From a virus: a DNA stretch of 22,627 nt. Of this stretch, positions 30 to 22,627 are shown piece after piece (the stretch's first letter is position 1; each line of letters begins with the position of its first letter). The stretch covers positions 1 through 22,627 of the IMG/VR virus record IMGVR_UViG_3300047557_002009, one strand, 5' to 3'. A model generated the notes under the pieces. It saw nothing but the letters and a program-made list of their open reading frames with translations. It made no database searches and was not told where the DNA came from. The position numbers and the translations under genes are program-made.

Positions 30-56
30 TTAATAGTTTAACAAATTAAAATAAGA

Positions 57-85
57 AGCAGCGGCATTTTTGTCGCTGTTTTTTT
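57..85 (+). terminator. Rho-independent terminator upstream of the thioredoxin operon
   Basis: The arms CAGCGGCA (59-66) and TGTCGCTG (71-78) form an 8-bp stem with one G-T wobble around a TTTT loop, followed by an uninterrupted T run from 79 to 85. It separates the upstream operon from the promoter that begins 9 bases later. Confidence 0.85.
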
Positions 86-93
86 ATCTTTTA

Positions 94-125
94 TTTGGAA
101 ATTTGAAATATTTTCATTATCTTTA
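94..125 (+). promoter_or_regulatory. Bacteroidota-type promoter for the thioredoxin operon
   Basis: TTTG at 94-97 is followed by exactly 20 bases and TATCTTTA at 118-125. This fits the known Bacteroidota primary-sigma pattern (TTG near -33, TAnnTTTG near -7) except for the last base. If the second box ends at -4, as in that pattern, transcription starts at 129, the A of the thioredoxin ATG, so the mRNA would be leaderless. The same spacing recurs at three other gaps in this window. Confidence 0.65.
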
Positions 126-128
126 AGT

Positions 129-395
129 ATGATAGAGATTTTATATTTTTCAGCACCGTGGTGTGGGCCTTGCAAGGCAATGAAGCCCGCAATCGATAAA
201 TTTGAGACTACTTTAGATACATCCAAGGTAAAGATTACGAGAATCAATATTGACGAAGAGAAAGAATTAACATCGAATTACAAAATTCAGTCAGTTCCTA
301 CTTTTGTATTTGTTAAAGATTCAGTAACCTTAGAAGTTTTAGTAGGCGTACAGTCAATTAAGACGTTCGAACAAATTTTAGAAAAATGGAGCTAA
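129..395 (+). CDS. Thioredoxin
   Basis: An 88-aa thioredoxin-fold protein with the canonical active site WCGPC at residues 11-15 (redox cysteines 12 and 15) and the conserved cis-proline in SVPTF (Pro57). It is slightly shorter than bacterial thioredoxins (about 105 aa) and lacks some N-terminal sequence ahead of the first strand, as in many phage thioredoxins and glutaredoxins. Its likely role is cytoplasmic dithiol reduction, for example supplying electrons to ribonucleotide reductase; the partner is not visible here. It is the first gene of its operon, and its ATG coincides with the predicted transcription start. Its last 10 bases overlap the next gene, HPRT, which implies coupled translation. 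The fold assignment is firm; the physiological target is inferred. Confidence 0.93.
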   Translation: MIEILYFSAPWCGPCKAMKPAIDKFETTLDTSKVKITRINIDEEKELTSNYKIQSVPTFVFVKDSVTLEVLVGVQSIKTFEQILEKWS

Positions 396-898
396 CTTTA
401 ATTGAAGAAAAAGATATTCGCGAGAGGGTTAAAGTTTTAGCAAATGAAATTGGCAGAGATTATAAAGATCATAGTGATCTTGTGTTTGTGTGTGTATTAC
501 GTGGCGCTTTTTTATTCTTTGCTGACTTAGTTCGTGAATTAGATATGGATGTTGAAACGGAATTTCTTCAAGCATCCAGTTACGAAAACGGAACAGAGAG
601 CCAAGGACTAACGATTAAATCTCAATTAAGTAATAACGTTAAAAATAAAACTGTTTTTATTGTTGATGATATAATCGATACGGGCCAAACTTTAAAAAGT
701 TTATCTGGTATTTATAGAGATTTAGGTGCAAAAGAAGTTAAGACAGTTGCTTTAGTTTGCAGACCTTCTAGTATACATATGATAGACTATTATGGATTTA
801 AAATTGGTGATGAATGGATTTATGGATATGGATTAGATTTGCAAAGTAAAAAAAGAACTTTAAAAGAAATAAAATATATTGAACCAAATGTAGATTAA
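386..898 (+). CDS. hpt: Hypoxanthine (6-oxopurine) phosphoribosyltransferase
   Basis: A 170-aa type I phosphoribosyltransferase, the usual length for bacterial Hpt. It should convert hypoxanthine or guanine plus PRPP to IMP or GMP. Visible motifs are the LRG diphosphate loop (38-40), the flexible-loop SSY (64-66), the PRPP-binding VDDIIDTGQTL (93-103) with its paired acidic residues, and the base-recognition segment near WIYGYGLD (144-151). The start overlaps the end of the thioredoxin gene by 10 bases, and the next gene starts 1 base after the stop. The pairing with thioredoxin suggests a nucleotide salvage and deoxynucleotide supply unit for phage DNA synthesis. Preference for hypoxanthine over guanine or xanthine cannot be read from sequence alone. 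Confidence 0.93.
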   Translation: MELTLIEEKDIRERVKVLANEIGRDYKDHSDLVFVCVLRGAFLFFADLVRELDMDVETEFLQASSYENGTESQGLTIKSQLSNNVKNKTVFIVDDIIDTGQTLKSLSGIYRDLGAKEVKTVALVCRPSSIHMIDYYGFKIGDEWIYGYGLDLQSKKRTLKEIKYIEPNVD

Positions 899-899
899 T

Positions 900-1172
900 A
901 TGGATAATGAAAGAATGAAAAAAATTATTTTGGAGATGTATACGGGGCAAGTAAATATGCAAGATGCTGTTGATTTAGTTTCTGAGTACATGATTGAAAC
1001 TAAAGGTGAAGTTAATGTTAAAGTACTTCAACACATTACAAATCAAATGGACCCGTTTGCGATGCAAATGATGCAAAGAGCTGTTGAAGTATCAAAACAA
1101 TATTTTGAAGCTACAAGAGTAACTATTACGAGAGTAATGAAATTAGATGGGACGTTTATATATGCGTTTTAA
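900..1172 (+). CDS. Conserved-looking hypothetical protein, 90 aa
   Basis: Not recognised. The 90-aa product is predicted mostly helical, rich in methionine (for example QMDPFAMQMMQRA at about 49-61), with no cysteine, membrane segment or signal peptide. It ends in a short strand-like stretch (LDGTFIYAF). The gene starts 1 base after the hpt stop, and its own stop shares bases with the next start (TAATG at 1170-1174), so it is firmly embedded in the operon. The tight packing and long open frame in AT-rich DNA make it a real gene. The function is unknown. Confidence 0.8.
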   Translation: MDNERMKKIILEMYTGQVNMQDAVDLVSEYMIETKGEVNVKVLQHITNQMDPFAMQMMQRAVEVSKQYFEATRVTITRVMKLDGTFIYAF

Positions 1173-2095
1173 TGATTGGATATCATATATACTATCAAAA
1201 AAATAAAGAAATAAACTTTGTAGAGATATCTTCTCAATTTGCATCTGCATTGTTTTGGAAAAAGAATTTTGGGCCGATTCGGTTATACTGTAATTCTAAG
1301 TTTCTAGAGACAATATCATTATATAAATTAGATTCATTATATGACGAAATAAACGTAGATATATTAGATAATATTCCATATAATTCAAAAACACTTTTAA
1401 AATATTGGAGTTTACCTAAACTATATGCTGCTAATGAAATTTCAAAATTAGAATCTACTTATTGTATATTAGATACTGATTTATGGATTACAAACTATTT
1501 TGACTGGGATAAATCTAAAGATTTTTTAGCATTTCATTACGAATCCTTTGATTTAAAGAATAAATATAATCCATATCTTATACCTTCGTCATTTATAGAT
1601 GATTATAATGAAAAAGAATGGGATGTATTAGCCATGAATTGTGCTTTTATGTATATTAATAATCAACAAATGGTATTTGATTGGTTTGAATATGCAGATA
1701 AAGTTGTAAAGTTAAATAAAACGGTAAAAACAAAAAATAAAAAAGACGTATATACGTTATTTATTGAGCAACGTGCAATTACTTATATTTGTGAAAAGTT
1801 AAAATTAAATTACGGCACATTTATACCTAATATATATACATCTGGCTTAAAAGATGATGATGTATGGAACCCGGAATTAGATTTTTCAGATATTCCGCAA
1901 AAATATATCAAACATATCTGGGGACTTAAAAATTTTTACGATTCTATAACATTAAAATTATTAGATTCAATATATAATGATATACATTCAGAGTTTGGAT
2001 TTTTAGAAATAGATTTTCCAGAACTTTATTTAAAACGATTAATAATAATTCAAAATGAAATTAGTACTAATATCAGACACACATACAATGCATGA
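1172..2095 (+). CDS. Glycosyltransferase-like protein
   Basis: A 307-aa protein with features of a GT-A-type glycosyltransferase. An N-terminal half of alternating strands leads to CILDTDLWI (98-106), whose DTD at 101-103 is a typical metal and nucleotide-sugar DxD motif placed after a hydrophobic strand. Later features are FIEQRAI (197-203), an acidic-basic motif often near the acceptor site, and KHIWG (247-251), resembling the late His-containing motif of such enzymes. It probably transfers a sugar to a phage or host surface molecule or to modified DNA; the acceptor is unknown. It starts inside the preceding stop (TAATG). Its last 41 bases overlap the next gene in another frame. No signal peptide is seen. 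The family is inferred from motif layout, not from a specific match. Confidence 0.6.
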   Translation: MIGYHIYYQKNKEINFVEISSQFASALFWKKNFGPIRLYCNSKFLETISLYKLDSLYDEINVDILDNIPYNSKTLLKYWSLPKLYAANEISKLESTYCILDTDLWITNYFDWDKSKDFLAFHYESFDLKNKYNPYLIPSSFIDDYNEKEWDVLAMNCAFMYINNQQMVFDWFEYADKVVKLNKTVKTKNKKDVYTLFIEQRAITYICEKLKLNYGTFIPNIYTSGLKDDDVWNPELDFSDIPQKYIKHIWGLKNFYDSITLKLLDSIYNDIHSEFGFLEIDFPELYLKRLIIIQNEISTNIRHTYNA

Positions 2096-2723
2096 AGATC
2101 TTGTATTACCGAAAGGTGATATACTGATACATGCCGGAGACTTTACCGGCAGAGGTAAGCCTCATGAAGTAGAAGATTTTTTTGGTTGGTTAGAAAGACA
2201 AGCAAAAGAGTTTAAGCATATTGTATTTATTGCCGGAAATCATGATATGGCTTTCGAATATAAAAGTACATGGACTATAGATATGCTAAAATCTTTACCT
2301 AGTAATATACATTATTTAGAAGATAGTAGCATTACAATTGATGGCATTAAATTTTATGGATCTCCATGGCAGCCTGAATTTTTTAATTGGGCATTTAATT
2401 TAAGAAGAGGTAGAGAATTAGAAGAAAAGTGGGAAATGATTCCTCACGATACTGATGTACTCGTTACTCATGGTCCTCCTATGAATATATTAGATTATAC
2501 TGCGAGAGATATGTGGAATGTAGGATGTTTGAATTTATATGATAGAGTAATGCTGATTAAACCTAAACTTCACGTATTTGGACATATCCATGAAGGATAT
2601 GGTATAAAAGAACATGAAGGTATTACGTTTGTTAATGCTAGTAGCGCAACTCTTAGGTATGAAATAAAAAATAAACCTATTGAGATTGAATATAGTAACG
2701 AAAAAGGTATAGAATTTTTATAA
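2055..2723 (+). CDS. Metallophosphoesterase, MPPED-like
   Basis: A 222-aa calcineurin-like phosphoesterase with the full set of metal-binding motifs: SDTH (7-10), AGDF (27-30), GNHD (61-64), THGPP (138-142) and FGHIHEGYG (175-183). The segment GSPWQPEFFNWAFNL (102-116) is characteristic of the MPPED1/MPPED2 subgroup of metal-dependent phosphodiesterases. It probably hydrolyses a phosphomonoester or cyclic or linear phosphodiester in the cytoplasm; the substrate is unknown. The start at MKLVLISDTH is the natural family start, so the 41-base overlap with the glycosyltransferase gene is real. It is the last gene of the operon, and its stop codon lies inside the terminator hairpin. Confidence 0.92.
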   Translation: MKLVLISDTHTMHEDLVLPKGDILIHAGDFTGRGKPHEVEDFFGWLERQAKEFKHIVFIAGNHDMAFEYKSTWTIDMLKSLPSNIHYLEDSSITIDGIKFYGSPWQPEFFNWAFNLRRGRELEEKWEMIPHDTDVLVTHGPPMNILDYTARDMWNVGCLNLYDRVMLIKPKLHVFGHIHEGYGIKEHEGITFVNASSATLRYEIKNKPIEIEYSNEKGIEFL

Positions 2724-2738
2724 TTTTATACCTTTTTT
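2703..2738 (+). terminator. Terminator of the thioredoxin-to-phosphoesterase operon
   Basis: AAAGGTATA (2703-2711) pairs with TATACCTTT (2727-2735). Weak further A-T pairs lie inside, and a T run covers 2733-2738. The stop codon TAA at 2721-2723 lies inside the hairpin, so coding sequence and terminator overlap. The -33-like box of the next promoter starts 1 base after the T run. Confidence 0.75.
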
Positions 2739-2739
2739 C

Positions 2740-2770
2740 TTGTTTATTTGAAAAGTGCATTTTATATTTA
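2740..2770 (+). promoter_or_regulatory. Bacteroidota-type promoter for the small-protein operon
   Basis: TTG at 2740-2742, exactly 20 bases, then TATATTTA at 2763-2770. This is the same layout and spacing as at 94-125. Predicted transcription starts near 2774, leaving a short AT-rich leader of about 19 bases before the ATG at 2793, so this transcript is not leaderless. Confidence 0.55.
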
Positions 2771-2792
2771 AGTATATTAAAAAAATAAAAAT

Positions 2793-3050
2793 ATGAGTAC
2801 ATGGAAAACAGTCGACGTTGATGTTGATATCGAATTAGAAGATGTTATTGATTTTATTGATTCGGCATCTGAAAAAGAATTAGAGAAAATTTTAAAAGCA
2901 GTAAAAGAAGAAATGGGTGAATATTCTACTACATTTTCTTCAATACGCGATACACAATTATACAGTGACTTAATGGATGCTGTTGAAGAAGCAGTTACCC
3001 GCCACGTTGATATGAAAGTGATGATTGATATAATTAAGTCTCTAAAATAA
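2793..3050 (+). CDS. Hypothetical acidic protein, 85 aa
   Basis: Not recognised. The 85-aa product is strongly acidic and predicted largely helical. An N-terminal acidic stretch (VDVDVDIELEDVIDFID, 8-24) is followed by a helix with alternating Glu and Lys. No cysteine, membrane segment or catalytic motif is seen. It opens a four-gene unit bounded by its own promoter and terminator and lies 3 bases from the next start. Small acidic phage proteins in such positions are sometimes modulators of host proteins, but nothing in the sequence shows that here. Confidence 0.75.
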   Translation: MSTWKTVDVDVDIELEDVIDFIDSASEKELEKILKAVKEEMGEYSTTFSSIRDTQLYSDLMDAVEEAVTRHVDMKVMIDIIKSLK

Positions 3051-3053
3051 TAT

Positions 3054-3389
3054 ATGAAACTAGAAACGGTAAAAAAACGTGTAAATAAGTATTATCCTTT
3101 GGCTAAGGCTTATAAAGAATTAGGGTCTTATTATATAGGAATTCCTGATTCAATGGATGATACTATTATAAATTTATTTGATGAATATTTTATTCCTTCG
3201 GTAGCTACTGAAGAAGAAGCTTGGAATAAAGCATTACTTTGTTGTAAAACAACTCAAAACTTTAATAGAACGCATCCGGATCGTATTGATGAGATAGATG
3301 AAATGAAGATGAGTCGTCTTAAAACTAGAGCAAATAAAATACATAAATCACGTGCAAAAAATAAGTCAAAGATATTTATAAATGATTAA
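3054..3389 (+). CDS. Hypothetical protein, 111 aa
   Basis: Not recognised. A 111-aa protein with a mixed N-terminal half and a lysine- and arginine-rich C-terminus (residues about 84-106), giving an acidic-then-basic charge pattern. Two adjacent cysteines occur in LLCCKTTQNF (62-71). The basic tail could contact nucleic acid, which is a guess. It starts 3 bases after the previous stop and is followed by an 11-base gap. Confidence 0.72.
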   Translation: MKLETVKKRVNKYYPLAKAYKELGSYYIGIPDSMDDTIINLFDEYFIPSVATEEEAWNKALLCCKTTQNFNRTHPDRIDEIDEMKMSRLKTRANKIHKSRAKNKSKIFIND

Positions 3390-3400
3390 TGATGTTATAA

Positions 3401-3658
3401 ATGTTAGACATATCTTCTATCTTTAATGATTTAAATATTAAGAATGAAATGGCCGGTCCATACTTAACTAGTAAAGAAAAAGATCAGGTTTTAGATAGAT
3501 TATATAATTTACAGGCACGATTAGAAAATATGAATAGTTATGAAAATTTAGCTATCGTAGATTCTGTAATTAATTTCGTAGAAAATTATGATAAGTCGCT
3601 GTCTGAGCATACTAAAAAAATTCTTAATGACATTTTACAACAAATTTCTAAAAAATGA
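3401..3658 (+). CDS. Hypothetical helical protein, 85 aa
   Basis: Not recognised. The 85-aa product is predicted almost entirely helical, with heptad-like spacing of Leu, Ile and Val from about residue 28 to the end, so it could form a coiled-coil or helical bundle. It has no cysteine, signal peptide or membrane segment. Its stop overlaps the next start in an ATGA (3655-3658), a strong sign of translational coupling with that gene. Confidence 0.72.
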   Translation: MLDISSIFNDLNIKNEMAGPYLTSKEKDQVLDRLYNLQARLENMNSYENLAIVDSVINFVENYDKSLSEHTKKILNDILQQISKK

Positions 3659-4116
3659 CAAAGCCAGCATTTGTTTATGATAATATCTTTTTAAATAAAG
3701 ATGATTATGAGTTTTTTCAAAGCTTACCAAACAGAGAAAAGCTTTTATTTTTATATGACCTTTGCTTAGAGGTTGAGGAGTTTGAAGAAGATAATGAAGA
3801 AGAATTATTTGAACCTGAAGAAGGTTCTGAAAATAATTTTTTAACACCTAAACTTTTAAAATTTTTAGAGCAAGCTTCTTATGACTCAAACTACGTGCAT
3901 ATTTTATTACTTCCTGATTCCTTAGTAATTTCTGGAAATTTAAGTTCAACAATAGATTCTACAAAAAAATACTTATTTAACGATGGATATATCTTTACAA
4001 AAGAACCATTTAACAATAAGTTTTTAGATAAAGAATTAAAAATGCTTCAACAATATTTTAAATACGTAGAAGTATATAAATTACTTTCTATTATTCATCC
4101 TAGTAGTTTAAATTAA
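3655..4116 (+). CDS. Hypothetical acidic protein, 153 aa
   Basis: Not recognised. The 153-aa product has an acidic low-complexity linker of Glu, Asp and Phe (residues about 39-62) between a helical N-terminus and a more ordered C-terminal half that contains a hydrophobic strand-like segment, VHILLLPDSLVISG (80-93). It is the last gene of its unit; its start lies inside the previous stop and a terminator begins at its own stop codon. The four-gene unit from 2793 contains no recognisable domain, a typical accessory phage cassette. Confidence 0.75.
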   Translation: MTKPAFVYDNIFLNKDDYEFFQSLPNREKLLFLYDLCLEVEEFEEDNEEELFEPEEGSENNFLTPKLLKFLEQASYDSNYVHILLLPDSLVISGNLSSTIDSTKKYLFNDGYIFTKEPFNNKFLDKELKMLQQYFKYVEVYKLLSIIHPSSLN

Positions 4117-4137
4117 GCCCTATTAAGGGCTTTTTTT
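4115..4137 (+). terminator. Terminator after the small-protein operon
   Basis: AAGCCCT (4115-4121) and AGGGCTT (4126-4132) form a perfect 7-bp stem with an ATTA loop, followed by T residues to 4137. The arm begins inside the stop codon of the upstream gene. A promoter starts 12 bases further on. Confidence 0.88.
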
Positions 4138-4148
4138 ATGTAATTAAA

Positions 4149-4180
4149 TTTGGTTTTTTGATTTGTTTACCTTATCTTTA
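4149..4180 (+). promoter_or_regulatory. Bacteroidota-type promoter for the UV damage endonuclease gene
   Basis: TTTG at 4149-4152, exactly 20 bases, then TATCTTTA at 4173-4180. This matches the promoter at 94-125 in both boxes and in spacing; in both the upstream box is also extended to TTTGG. Predicted transcription starts at 4184, 1 base before the ATG at 4185. This also decides the start codon: the in-frame TTG at 4158 lies upstream of the predicted transcript. Confidence 0.65.
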
Positions 4181-4184
4181 TGAT

Positions 4185-5105
4185 ATGATAAGAAATTTAG
4201 GTTATGCGTGTATTAACACTACTTTGCAAAAAAGTAAGATTAGTACTAATCGCGGTATGAAACAAGCTACGTTTAAGTCTAAGGGCTTACCGTATGCATC
4301 TGAACTAGCATTGAAAAATGTTATTGATTTAGAAAAGATTATTCATTGGAATGAAGCTAATAATATTAGGTTCTTCCGTATTAGCAGTGACATCTTTCCA
4401 TGGTGTAGCGAATACAATTTTGACCAACTTCCGGATTTTCCTCAGATTAAAGAAGTTATGGAGCGCATTGGCCTATATATTCAAGCTCATAAACACCGAA
4501 TTACCGCTCACCCAGGCCCTTTTAATTTATTAGCATCTCCTAATGAAGCTGTGGTTAAAAAGACTCTTATAGAGCTTGAAAACCATTCTAAGGTATTTGA
4601 TTTATTAGGTTTGGATGAGTCTCCGTATAATAAGATTAACATACATGTAGGCGCTACGTATAACAATAAAGAAGGCGCGGCTAAGACATGGGTTAAGAAT
4701 ATGAGACGCTTAAGTACTGCTTGTGCTTCTCGTTTAACTGTTGAGAATGATGATAAAGCATCTATGTTCTCAGTTAAAGATTTATATCATATGGTACATT
4801 CAGAATGTGGTGTTCCTATTGTGTTTGATTTTCATCATCATACTTTCAATACTGGCGAGTTATCTGAATTTGAAGCTCTTAAGTTAGCTTCTTGCACGTG
4901 GCCAATGGATGTTATTACAACTACGCATTATTCTGAAAGCAAATCATTACATTTTAATGACCCGAAAATTAAACTTCAAGCTCATAGTGACTTAATCAAT
5001 GGGCCGATTAATTGTCATGGCCTTAATATTGATGTTATGATTGAAGCAAAGTCTAAAGAATTAGCACTTTTGGAGTTTAGAAAAAAATATTTTCCTGAAG
5101 TCTAG
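4185..5105 (+). CDS. uvsE: UV damage endonuclease, UvdE/UvsE family
   Basis: A 306-aa TIM-barrel endonuclease that nicks DNA 5' to UV photoproducts and some other lesions, starting alternative excision repair. The N-terminus IRNLGYACIN is the family signature. Expected metal and active-site segments are present: SSDIFPW (68-74), TAHPG (107-111, His109), IHVG (153-156, His154), TVENDD (185-190, Glu187), FDFHHHT (214-220, Asp215 and His218) and a TTHYSES segment. The length is normal. A TTG 27 bases upstream is also in frame, but the ATG matches the family start and the promoter position. Sampled 60-base lines look richer in G+C (mostly about 33-42 %) than structural genes in this window, suggesting later acquisition. 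It would protect phage DNA or replace host repair. Confidence 0.93.
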   Translation: MIRNLGYACINTTLQKSKISTNRGMKQATFKSKGLPYASELALKNVIDLEKIIHWNEANNIRFFRISSDIFPWCSEYNFDQLPDFPQIKEVMERIGLYIQAHKHRITAHPGPFNLLASPNEAVVKKTLIELENHSKVFDLLGLDESPYNKINIHVGATYNNKEGAAKTWVKNMRRLSTACASRLTVENDDKASMFSVKDLYHMVHSECGVPIVFDFHHHTFNTGELSEFEALKLASCTWPMDVITTTHYSESKSLHFNDPKIKLQAHSDLINGPINCHGLNIDVMIEAKSKELALLEFRKKYFPEV

Positions 5106-5195
5106 GAAATATGATAAAATTTAATTATAATGATGATGGGATAGAATAAGAAATGGGTCCACACCATATAATAATTAAATAATATTAAATATACT

Positions 5196-5209
5196 ATAAT
5201 TATAATAAA
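5196..5209 (+). promoter_or_regulatory. Degenerate copy of the candidate late element
   Basis: ATAATTATAATAAA matches 13 of 14 bases of the element found before the genes at 9521 and 14294. It lies 12 bases before the ATG at 5222 in a 116-base gap (5106-5221) that is otherwise low-complexity AT. In such DNA a chance match is quite possible. TATAAATC at 5210-5217 also differs by one base from the T4 late promoter TATAAATA. Confidence 0.25.
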
Positions 5210-5221
5210 TATAAATCGGTC

Positions 5222-5410
5222 ATGAGATACAAAGCACAAACACAAACAAAGTTAGAAGCAGTAAACAATCAATTGTTATCTATCGTAAAAGGATTAGATA
5301 CACGTACATTGTCTGCTGAACAAGTAACAGTAGAAATTCAACAGGTTAGACAGAAAGTAGAGAATATTATTTCTTTAATTGAATTGGAGCCGACAGATTA
5401 CGGTTATTAA
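5222..5410 (+). CDS. Hypothetical small coiled-coil protein, 62 aa
   Basis: Not recognised. The 62-aa product is predicted helical, with two amphipathic helices (about 8-24 and 34-54) joined at GLDTRTLSAEQ, ending in an acidic tail with TDYGY. It could form a helical hairpin or a small oligomer. It is isolated between two non-coding gaps, with the only ATG at 5222. Its composition is less AT-extreme than the flanking gaps, which favours a real gene. No function can be proposed. Confidence 0.65.
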   Translation: MRYKAQTQTKLEAVNNQLLSIVKGLDTRTLSAEQVTVEIQQVRQKVENIISLIELEPTDYGY

Positions 5411-5414
5411 CCAT

Positions 5415-5445
5415 TTTGATGATCATATATGAATGATTATCTTAA
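5415..5445 (+). promoter_or_regulatory. Weak promoter-like sequence with a hairpin in its spacer
   Basis: TTTG at 5415-5418, 19 bases, then TATCTTAA at 5438-5445. Spacing is one base shorter than in the four better examples. An imperfect palindrome, GATGATCAT (5418-5426) with ATGATTATC (5433-5441), fills the spacer and could be an operator. No ATG follows closely, so if active it would transcribe the short non-coding stretch up to the hairpin at 5501. Confidence 0.3.
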
Positions 5446-5500
5446 TTCAATAAAAGAATACCACTTTTAATTTTCCATTTAAAATTTTAAATTTAAGCAC

Positions 5501-5533
5501 TAAATCTTCATTGTTAATAGCAGTGGAGATTTA
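5501..5533 (+). terminator. Hairpin, probable terminator before the ClpP-like operon
   Basis: AAATCTTCATTG (5502-5513) pairs with CAGTGGAGATTT (5521-5532) over 12 bp with two G-T wobbles, extended by T5501-A5533, around the loop TTAATAG. The T-rich stretch that follows is broken (TTTGTTT), so termination may be partial. The promoter box TTTG begins at 5534, immediately against the stem. Confidence 0.6.
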
Positions 5534-5565
5534 TTTGTTTATAAGGGATTTTTTCTTTATATTAG
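5534..5565 (+). promoter_or_regulatory. Bacteroidota-type promoter for the ClpP-to-sigma operon
   Basis: TTTG at 5534-5537, exactly 20 bases, then TATATTAG at 5558-5565 (one mismatch to TAnnTTTG). Placing the end of the second box at -4 puts the transcription start at 5569, the A of the ATG, predicting a leaderless mRNA as for the thioredoxin operon. Confidence 0.6.
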
Positions 5566-5568
5566 ATT

Positions 5569-6237
5569 ATGATTCAGAAAAAAACAAAGCAAAACATATA
5601 TGGAGAACGTATAACTTCAAGTAATGTACAAGAAGCTATTGACGAATCTTCACAAACAGAAGTTTATGATTATGATATAAATTCTGCAGAATACTTATTT
5701 AAACAAGCCGAACATGGATTTAATGTAGATGATGAAGTTATTTATTTACATGGGCCGGTTAAGGACGGAGAAACATTATACAACATAATGTATGCAGTAA
5801 GAATAATATTACGTTATAGGGCAGAAGAAGATAAAGATAAGCCAATGACAATTTCATTAAATTCTCCAGGAGGAGATATTTTTGAAATGAATGGTATTAT
5901 TGATTATATCCAGTCTTTACCATTTAAAGTAAATGTAGTTTGTAGAGGTCAAGCAATTTCTGCAGGAGCTTGGATATTAGCTTGTGCTACGGGAATTAGA
6001 GCTATGAGTAAAAATTCTACGATGATGATTCATGAAGGATCATATGAAATGCAGGATAAATTTCATAACATGAAATCTTCATTAGATTATTTCAATCATT
6101 TAGAAACATTAGGTTGTCAAATGTTAGCTGATAAAACAGGAATTGAAGCTTCATTTTGGAAAGAAAAATGTAAATTAGATTGGTACTTAACAGCAGAAGA
6201 AGCATTAAAATTAAAATTAATAGATAAAATAATATAA
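5569..6237 (+). CDS. ClpP-like serine protease
   Basis: A 222-aa protein of the ClpP/crotonase fold (peptidase family S14). The catalytic triad is visible: Ser131 in GQAISAGAWIL, His155 in MMIHEG and probably Asp204 in KLDWYLTAEEA. The oxyanion-side segment SLNSPGGDI (96-104) and the C-terminal TAEEALKLKLIDKII are canonical. About 50 residues precede the conserved core, and no ATPase partner lies nearby. Phage ClpP-like proteins can act as prohead proteases, or could partner or redirect host ClpX-type unfoldases; no capsid gene in this window supports the first option. It heads an operon ending in the late sigma factor and starts at the predicted transcription start. The fold and catalytic competence are firm; the role is open. 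Confidence 0.92.
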   Translation: MIQKKTKQNIYGERITSSNVQEAIDESSQTEVYDYDINSAEYLFKQAEHGFNVDDEVIYLHGPVKDGETLYNIMYAVRIILRYRAEEDKDKPMTISLNSPGGDIFEMNGIIDYIQSLPFKVNVVCRGQAISAGAWILACATGIRAMSKNSTMMIHEGSYEMQDKFHNMKSSLDYFNHLETLGCQMLADKTGIEASFWKEKCKLDWYLTAEEALKLKLIDKII

Positions 6238-22082: not shown

Positions 22083-22627
22083 ATGGATAATACTAAATTA
22101 GTTTCTTCGGTAGAGTCATTATTAGGAAAAGGTAAGAAAACATCTAATGGTAATGTGGCATACTATTGCCCATTTTGTAACCATCACAAACGTAAGTTAG
22201 AGATTCAAATGCTTACTAATACCAAAGGAGAAAATCCATGGAGTTGTTGGGTATGTCAAAAAAGGGGTCGTAAATTAATTAATCTTTACAAGCAATTAAA
22301 TGCTGGTTACGAAAAGATCGTAGAATTAAATAAAGCCTTAGGTGTTGTAGTAAAAGATATTAATAGTTTATTTACAGAACATTCAAATAACTCATCAACA
22401 CATTTATCTTTACCTGCGGAATATAAATCTTTTTTAGAAGCAGAGAATACTCCAGATTATAGAAATGCTTTAAAGTATTTAAGGGAAAATAGAGGATTTA
22501 CGAATTTTGATATTATAAAGTATCATTTGGGATTTTGTGAATCTGGTCAATATAGACATAAAATTATTATACCAAGTTATAACTTATCTGGAAGTTTAAA
22601 TTTCTTTGTAGGACGAGATTTTTATGG
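22083..22627 (+). CDS. DNA primase, N-terminal part (runs off the window)
   Basis: At least 181 residues are present and the frame is open at the right edge. The N-terminus holds a zinc ribbon of DnaG-like phage primases: YYCPFCNHHKRKL (27-39) and WSCWVCQKRGRKLINL (53-68), with Cys29, Cys32, Cys55 and Cys58 as probable zinc ligands. Further on, ALKYLRENRGFTNFDIIKYHLGF resembles the helical linker that precedes the TOPRIM catalytic domain, and IIIPSYN followed by FFVGRD is the start of that region. It makes RNA primers for lagging-strand synthesis, with a helicase expected nearby. The ATG directly follows a repeated 12-mer. The catalytic domain lies outside the window. Confidence 0.85.
   Translation, partial: MDNTKLVSSVESLLGKGKKTSNGNVAYYCPFCNHHKRKLEIQMLTNTKGENPWSCWVCQKRGRKLINLYKQLNAGYEKIVELNKALGVVVKDINSLFTEHSNNSSTHLSLPAEYKSFLEAENTPDYRNALKYLRENRGFTNFDIIKYHLGFCESGQYRHKIIIPSYNLSGSLNFFVGRDFY

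Follow-up and report, generated by a model that had tools for sequence, protein, structure and literature searches.

Genes and promoters of the window

Three genes on the plus strand of the window, the whole 22.6-kb virus record (22,627 nt) analyzed here, which is a fragment, begin directly behind a promoter. They encode a thioredoxin (trx, 129..395), a UvdE UV-endonuclease (uvdE, 4185..5105) and a ClpP-like protease that is prohead-protease-like in PHROGs (PHROG 94; 5569..6237). Each follows a promoter of the form TTTG-N20-TATMTTWR, and their ATGs lie 3, 4 and 3 nt past the second box, respectively. The trx promoter has its -33 box TTTG at 94..97 and its -7 box TATCTTTA at 118..125. The same two boxes precede uvdE (4149..4152 and 4173..4180), and TTTG (5534..5537) and TATATTAG (5558..5565) precede the clpP-like gene. 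A fourth promoter, which served for comparison, has a CTTG at 2739..2742 and TATATTTA at 2763..2770; in all four the TTTG or CTTG is found exactly 20 nt upstream of the -7 box. Unlike the other three, this promoter is separated by 22 nt from its ATG, that of an 85-aa gene of unknown family (2793..3050, plus strand), for which a leader of about 18-19 nt is predicted. An earlier note on this DNA had singled out that gene as the leadered one, and the boxes and the ATGs at 129, 4185 and 5569 are also as it gave them, their status as promoters now being backed by matrix scores and by the spacing in relatives.

The TTTG found at 94, 4149 and 5534 is the -33 element of Bacteroidota sigma-A promoters. 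Compared with the -7 consensus TAnnTTTG, the trx and uvdE boxes carry TATCTTT but end in A, and the box of the clpP-like gene reads TATATTAG. The TAHHTTTA form also occurs in the cultured Flavobacterium phage immuto. Terminator-like hairpins are present on the plus strand upstream of trx (53..84), uvdE (4115..4132) and the clpP-like gene (5501..5533, with 3 G-C pairs), and all three are kept in relatives.

The start codon is ATG in all three genes. A later start is impossible for trx and UvdE because their Pfam domains (PF00085 and PF03851) begin at residues 4 and 5; the start of the ClpP-like protein is less constrained, its domain (PF00574) beginning at residue 57. A TTG at 4158 sits in the spacer of the uvdE promoter, and a 1-nt difference between two relatives (L015 and L017) and the others breaks its frame. 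Automatic start annotation may nevertheless pick this TTG, inside the promoter.

Relatives and promoter matrix

The baseplate gene product of the window is 53% identical to that of Mel-JY01, a record with capsid and tail genes resembling those of T4; the identity to the immuto product is 44%. Promoter type and relatives together point to Bacteroidota as the most likely host phylum. The Mel-JY01 record (PP395634.1), which encodes ribosomal protein bS21 at 22183-22410, is labelled as a Microcystis phage; since it is the closest annotated relative by the baseplate gene and the next ones are Flavobacterium phages, this host label may deserve a check. An Rfam search of the window gave no match.

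Further relatives were fetched from IMG/VR via UvdE, and three long ones were examined in full (G002, 197 kb; G001, 115 kb; G003, 72 kb). Promoters in which TATCTTTA lies 14-30 nt ahead of a start number 19 in G002. Almost all of them fall within one block at 87-111 kb, which is probably the early region, to judge from the many small genes of unknown function found there. A 34-nt matrix was trained only on these 19 leadered promoters. It ends at the box and holds nothing after it, so that the distance from box to ATG is an independent measurement. On G002 the matrix found 43 sites on the coding strand and 1 on the opposite strand, with 0.2 expected. In the window, the promoters of trx (31.8 bits) and uvdE (28.6 bits) are the top two sites on both strands, while the best site in 20 shuffles of the window reached 13.1 bits. 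For a site placed at random, the probability of lying 3-4 nt ahead of any of the 27 starts is about 0.0012, and about 1.4e-6 for two of two. The clpP-like site of the window is weak, being missed by the first matrix and scoring 16.9 bits with a refined one, but its orthologues in relatives have better boxes (TATATTTA, or TATATTTG in L053) at the same distance to the ATG.

Two other motifs were tried and set aside: a generic sigma-70 scan, aimed at the wrong promoter type, gave 130 matches versus 138 in shuffles and thus no excess, and the T4 late box TATAAATA has at most 2 sites per genome.

Distance between promoter and start codon

Distances from box to ATG were counted wherever a gene had 12 nt or more of space upstream and its site scored 8 bits or higher. 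They fall into two groups. In G002, 10 genes lie at 3-5 nt, 1 at 6-13, 23 at 14-28 and 2 beyond; the corresponding numbers for G001 are 8, 1, 3 and 0. Shuffled upstream regions gave about 0 sites in the same count, and under uniform distances (46 positions) the cluster at 3-5 nt has p = 7e-5 in G002 and 1e-7 in G001. The coincidence of box and ATG that the earlier note had proposed to look for at other promoters thus exists in relatives, as a separate class. Among the cultured phages examined, none shows this class clearly. Besides trx, uvdE and the clpP-like gene, this class includes genes for a PD-(D/E)XK exonuclease, a PolA-like protein, a DksA/TraR-type zinc-finger protein, a glycosyltransferase and an aminotransferase in G002 and G001, and for a family B DNA polymerase in G001 only. 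The last gene has a promoter at 3 nt in G001 and none at the G002 orthologue; for this reason, no weight was placed on cases known from a single contig.

The short distance is conserved. For trx, UvdE and ClpP it is 3-4 nt wherever these genes are present in eight relatives (L009, L010, L013, L015, L017, L021, G001 and G002), and the -7 box of uvdE is invariant in 8 aligned relatives. For the gene at 2793, which is leadered, the spacing differs among relatives, from 14 to 23 nt. In L015 the promoter of UvdE resembles that of trx, in L017 it is another one, and both lie at 3 nt; the distance has therefore been kept while the sequence changed. In a sister group (L018-L020 and L022; 58% identity) UvdE is leadered, with 17-30 nt.

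Strong promoters of the early region have a longer spacing, mostly 14-28 nt. The G002 region at 84-111 kb holds 0 of 11 sites of the 3-5 nt class against 24 of 34 leadered ones (hypergeometric, about 3e-5, computed by hand), so the class is a minority that lies outside the early block. The leaderless initiation called systematic in the earlier note is accordingly too strong a description, since the class makes up about 10 of the 36 detectable promoters of the 197-kb G002 and none in its early region. Codon 2 is ATA or ATT in 7 of 21 leaderless genes, 1 of 28 leadered genes and 37 of 425 overall; this may reflect a constraint on the bases transcribed first, although orthologues are counted repeatedly in these numbers and they were not used as evidence.

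Predicted position of the transcription start

Mapped start sites put the box at -12..-5 in F. psychrophilum (PMC9723704), and for F. johnsoniae the published data leave 4-5 nt between it and the start (PMC6847099). A count over 800 kb of Flavobacterium hiemivividum placed TAHHTTTG exactly 4 nt before 9 starts, with 1 case at 3 nt (of 204 TAHHTTTG sites) and 1 at 5 nt; it is rare 8-15 nt before starts and then occurs mostly from 16 nt. TAHHTTTA likewise peaks at 4 nt (6 starts). This 4-nt peak agrees with the published start sites, so the leaderless reading is sound for genes at 4 nt such as UvdE. For trx and ClpP, at 3 nt, transcription would need to begin one base ahead of the host mode, as the AUG would otherwise be cut. 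Such a start is plausible because all 28 leadered phage promoters have A at position 4 after the box and 22 of them have T at position 5. Position 6 is also A in all 28, and a start there is possible too. The A of the ATG forms a pyrimidine-purine start site 4-6 nt past the box in 19 of 21 cases. The phage -7 box ends in A, whereas the host consensus ends in G.

The earlier note had let the box end at -4 and obtained starts at 129, 4184 and 5569; the published spacing instead gives 130, 4185 and 5570. On the evidence taken together, the mRNAs of trx, UvdE and the ClpP-like gene most likely lack a leader or come within 1-2 nt of lacking one. The note's central claim of leaderless messages for these genes has gained the conserved spacing, the 3-5 nt class, the upstream hairpins and, for trx and UvdE, N-terminal homology; it stands as a prediction, with 5' ends deduced from the sequence.

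An element, AGTATAAT, follows the -7 box directly in 28 leadered promoters (G002, G001 and the window) and is absent from the Flavobacterium promoters examined. It was considered as the true -10 box, which would put the start inside the ORF, and was rejected, as it is not kept in most leaderless genes and lies at the wrong distance from TTTG.

Other elements in the window and its relatives

G002 carries an array of 25 tRNA genes that is headed by an initiator-type tRNA-Met with a GGG:CCC anticodon stem and U1-A72 (G002:117427-117499, which is L028:17427-17499). Strong promoters of the same kind are found directly before tRNA genes in G002 (117.9-119.6 kb), L013 (3018) and L017 (2104 and 3192), and two relatives have tmRNA genes (L017:1141-1519 and L040:14004-14391). 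A promoter-like site with the box TATAATGA or TATAATAA lies right after uvdE with no ORF close behind. It is conserved (window 5100-5221; G002:131383; G001, minus strand, 7301; L013:10942; L017:10941) and, together with a conserved GGRACCACA-like stretch between it and a 62-aa gene at 5222, makes a candidate for a long leader or a small RNA. A second motif, ATAATTATATTAA, occurs 9-16 nt before some genes that have no TTTG box (upstream of window 9521; G002:125668, 135791, 170415 and 171477) and is perhaps a late promoter.

Proposed mechanism and alternatives

We consider it probable that a promoter set flush against the AUG gives trx, uvdE and the clpP-like gene leaders of 0-2 nt, and that such promoters form a stable minority class for which compactness is the likeliest reason. 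A promoter of the Bacteroidota sigma-A type, with TTTG near -33 and TATMTTTA near -7, would abut the start codon of each gene. RNA polymerase would begin where T and A form the first pyrimidine-purine step, 4-5 nt past the box, and this A would also open the AUG. Each operon's first gene would then head an mRNA whose leader measures 0-2 nt. Ribosomes would read such an mRNA from the AUG at its 5' end, just as they must read the few percent of host messages that are leaderless. From early promoters of this type, leaders of about 11-25 nt are predicted.

A chance meeting of AT-rich motifs and start codons has to be considered in a genome of 71% AT in which generic sigma-70 matches are no commoner than in shuffles. 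The matrix scores, the strand bias (43 versus 1 in G002), the bimodality and the conservation leave it a negligible probability overall, and it is ruled out for trx and UvdE. It is also unlikely that these promoters, though genuine, initiate a few bases downstream, within the ORF, and that the genes are in fact expressed with long leaders by read-through from upstream. The distance of 3 nt, one below the host mode, and the invariant A at position 6 of the leadered promoters would suit that model. However, it would make conserved promoters of conserved genes useless, terminator-like hairpins lie directly upstream, the UvdE orthologues interchange 3 and 4 nt, and neither the cluster at 3-5 nt nor the nearly empty zone at 6-13 nt would be expected.

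The earlier note had suggested that leaderless messages could help the phage to escape host control of initiation. Compaction, in which a promoter fills the space that a terminator or upstream gene leaves before the next ATG, accounts for the arrangement at least as well and is the likeliest reason. Bacteroidota ribosomes ignore Shine-Dalgarno sequences, and their choice of start is still being worked out; because these sequences are not used, the loss of a leader may be tolerated. That compaction is the whole reason, with no translational role, we hold to be an even chance; this concerns the reason and is compatible with leaderless transcription. In G002 the upstream gaps of the 3-5 nt class measure 14-434 nt (median about 57) versus 37-2472 nt (median about 107) otherwise (p = 0.036), gaps of 14-22 nt place the promoter within the upstream gene, and a single substitution turns agtATA into agtATG. 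Yet the gaps upstream of trx, uvdE and the clpP-like gene span 68-159 nt, in which a leader would fit, and the distance is still 3-4 nt in all close relatives examined.

A translation programme run by the phage, in which components such as an extra initiator tRNA favor the leaderless set during infection, appears very unlikely. It would draw on the tRNA genes of G002, which lie at 117-125 kb, just before trx, and include the one of initiator type, and a larger amount of initiator tRNA favors leaderless translation in E. coli (reviewed in PMC9031893). As a companion of the leaderless genes, however, this tRNA was found in G002 only; its signature is absent from 15 other records, most of them fragments, some of which have the 3-5 nt class. 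The bS21 protein was likewise rejected as a phage-encoded initiation switch, being present only in the distant Mel-JY01 and absent from the records of the clade. Quite unlikely, too, is a conserved leaderless regulon of DNA repair, redox, protease and replication-type genes, set apart from the leadered early genes, for which the tRNA array (with an initiator tRNA in one member) would favor 5'-terminal AUGs as infection proceeds.

Comparison with known systems and significance

Leaderless mRNAs make up 5.5% in F. psychrophilum (PMC9723704); in B. thetaiotaomicron 3.7% of 5' UTRs are shorter than 10 nt (PMC7366714), and in F. johnsoniae 87% of predicted leaders exceed 10 nt (PMC6847099). The leaderless mRNAs of Flavobacterium and Bacteroides resemble the cases described here in promoter type and geometry, with about 4 nt between the end of the -7 box and the start. 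The present ones differ in that they are phage-borne and predicted from sequence rather than mapped, in that half of them have 3 nt rather than 4, and in the A at the end of the box. The 3-5 nt class is also commoner in the phage, with 10 of 34 in G002 versus 11 of 149 in F. hiemivividum (p = 0.001), under motif definitions that differ between the two. The cI gene of phage lambda (an example in PMC9031893) is likewise a phage gene whose mRNA begins with AUG, but it is one repressor gene of a temperate E. coli phage, while here several operon-first genes of a T4-like Bacteroidota phage are concerned. For Zheng et al. 2011 (PMC3160421), too, a -10-like box lying 10-12 nt ahead of the start codon marked leaderless, TA-led genes; their search was for TANNNT, and of 37 Bacteroidetes/Chlorobi genomes only 1 had such genes. 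In a limited literature search no transcript map for any Flavobacterium phage turned up, although one may exist.

Leaderless mRNAs themselves are already known in the presumed host phylum, and the predicted leaderless genes are most likely a real minority class in this phage group. The two classes of promoter-to-start distance are sharply separate, one being held at 3-4 nt, and they provide natural pairs, such as leaderless and leadered UvdE orthologues, for testing leaderless messages in infection.
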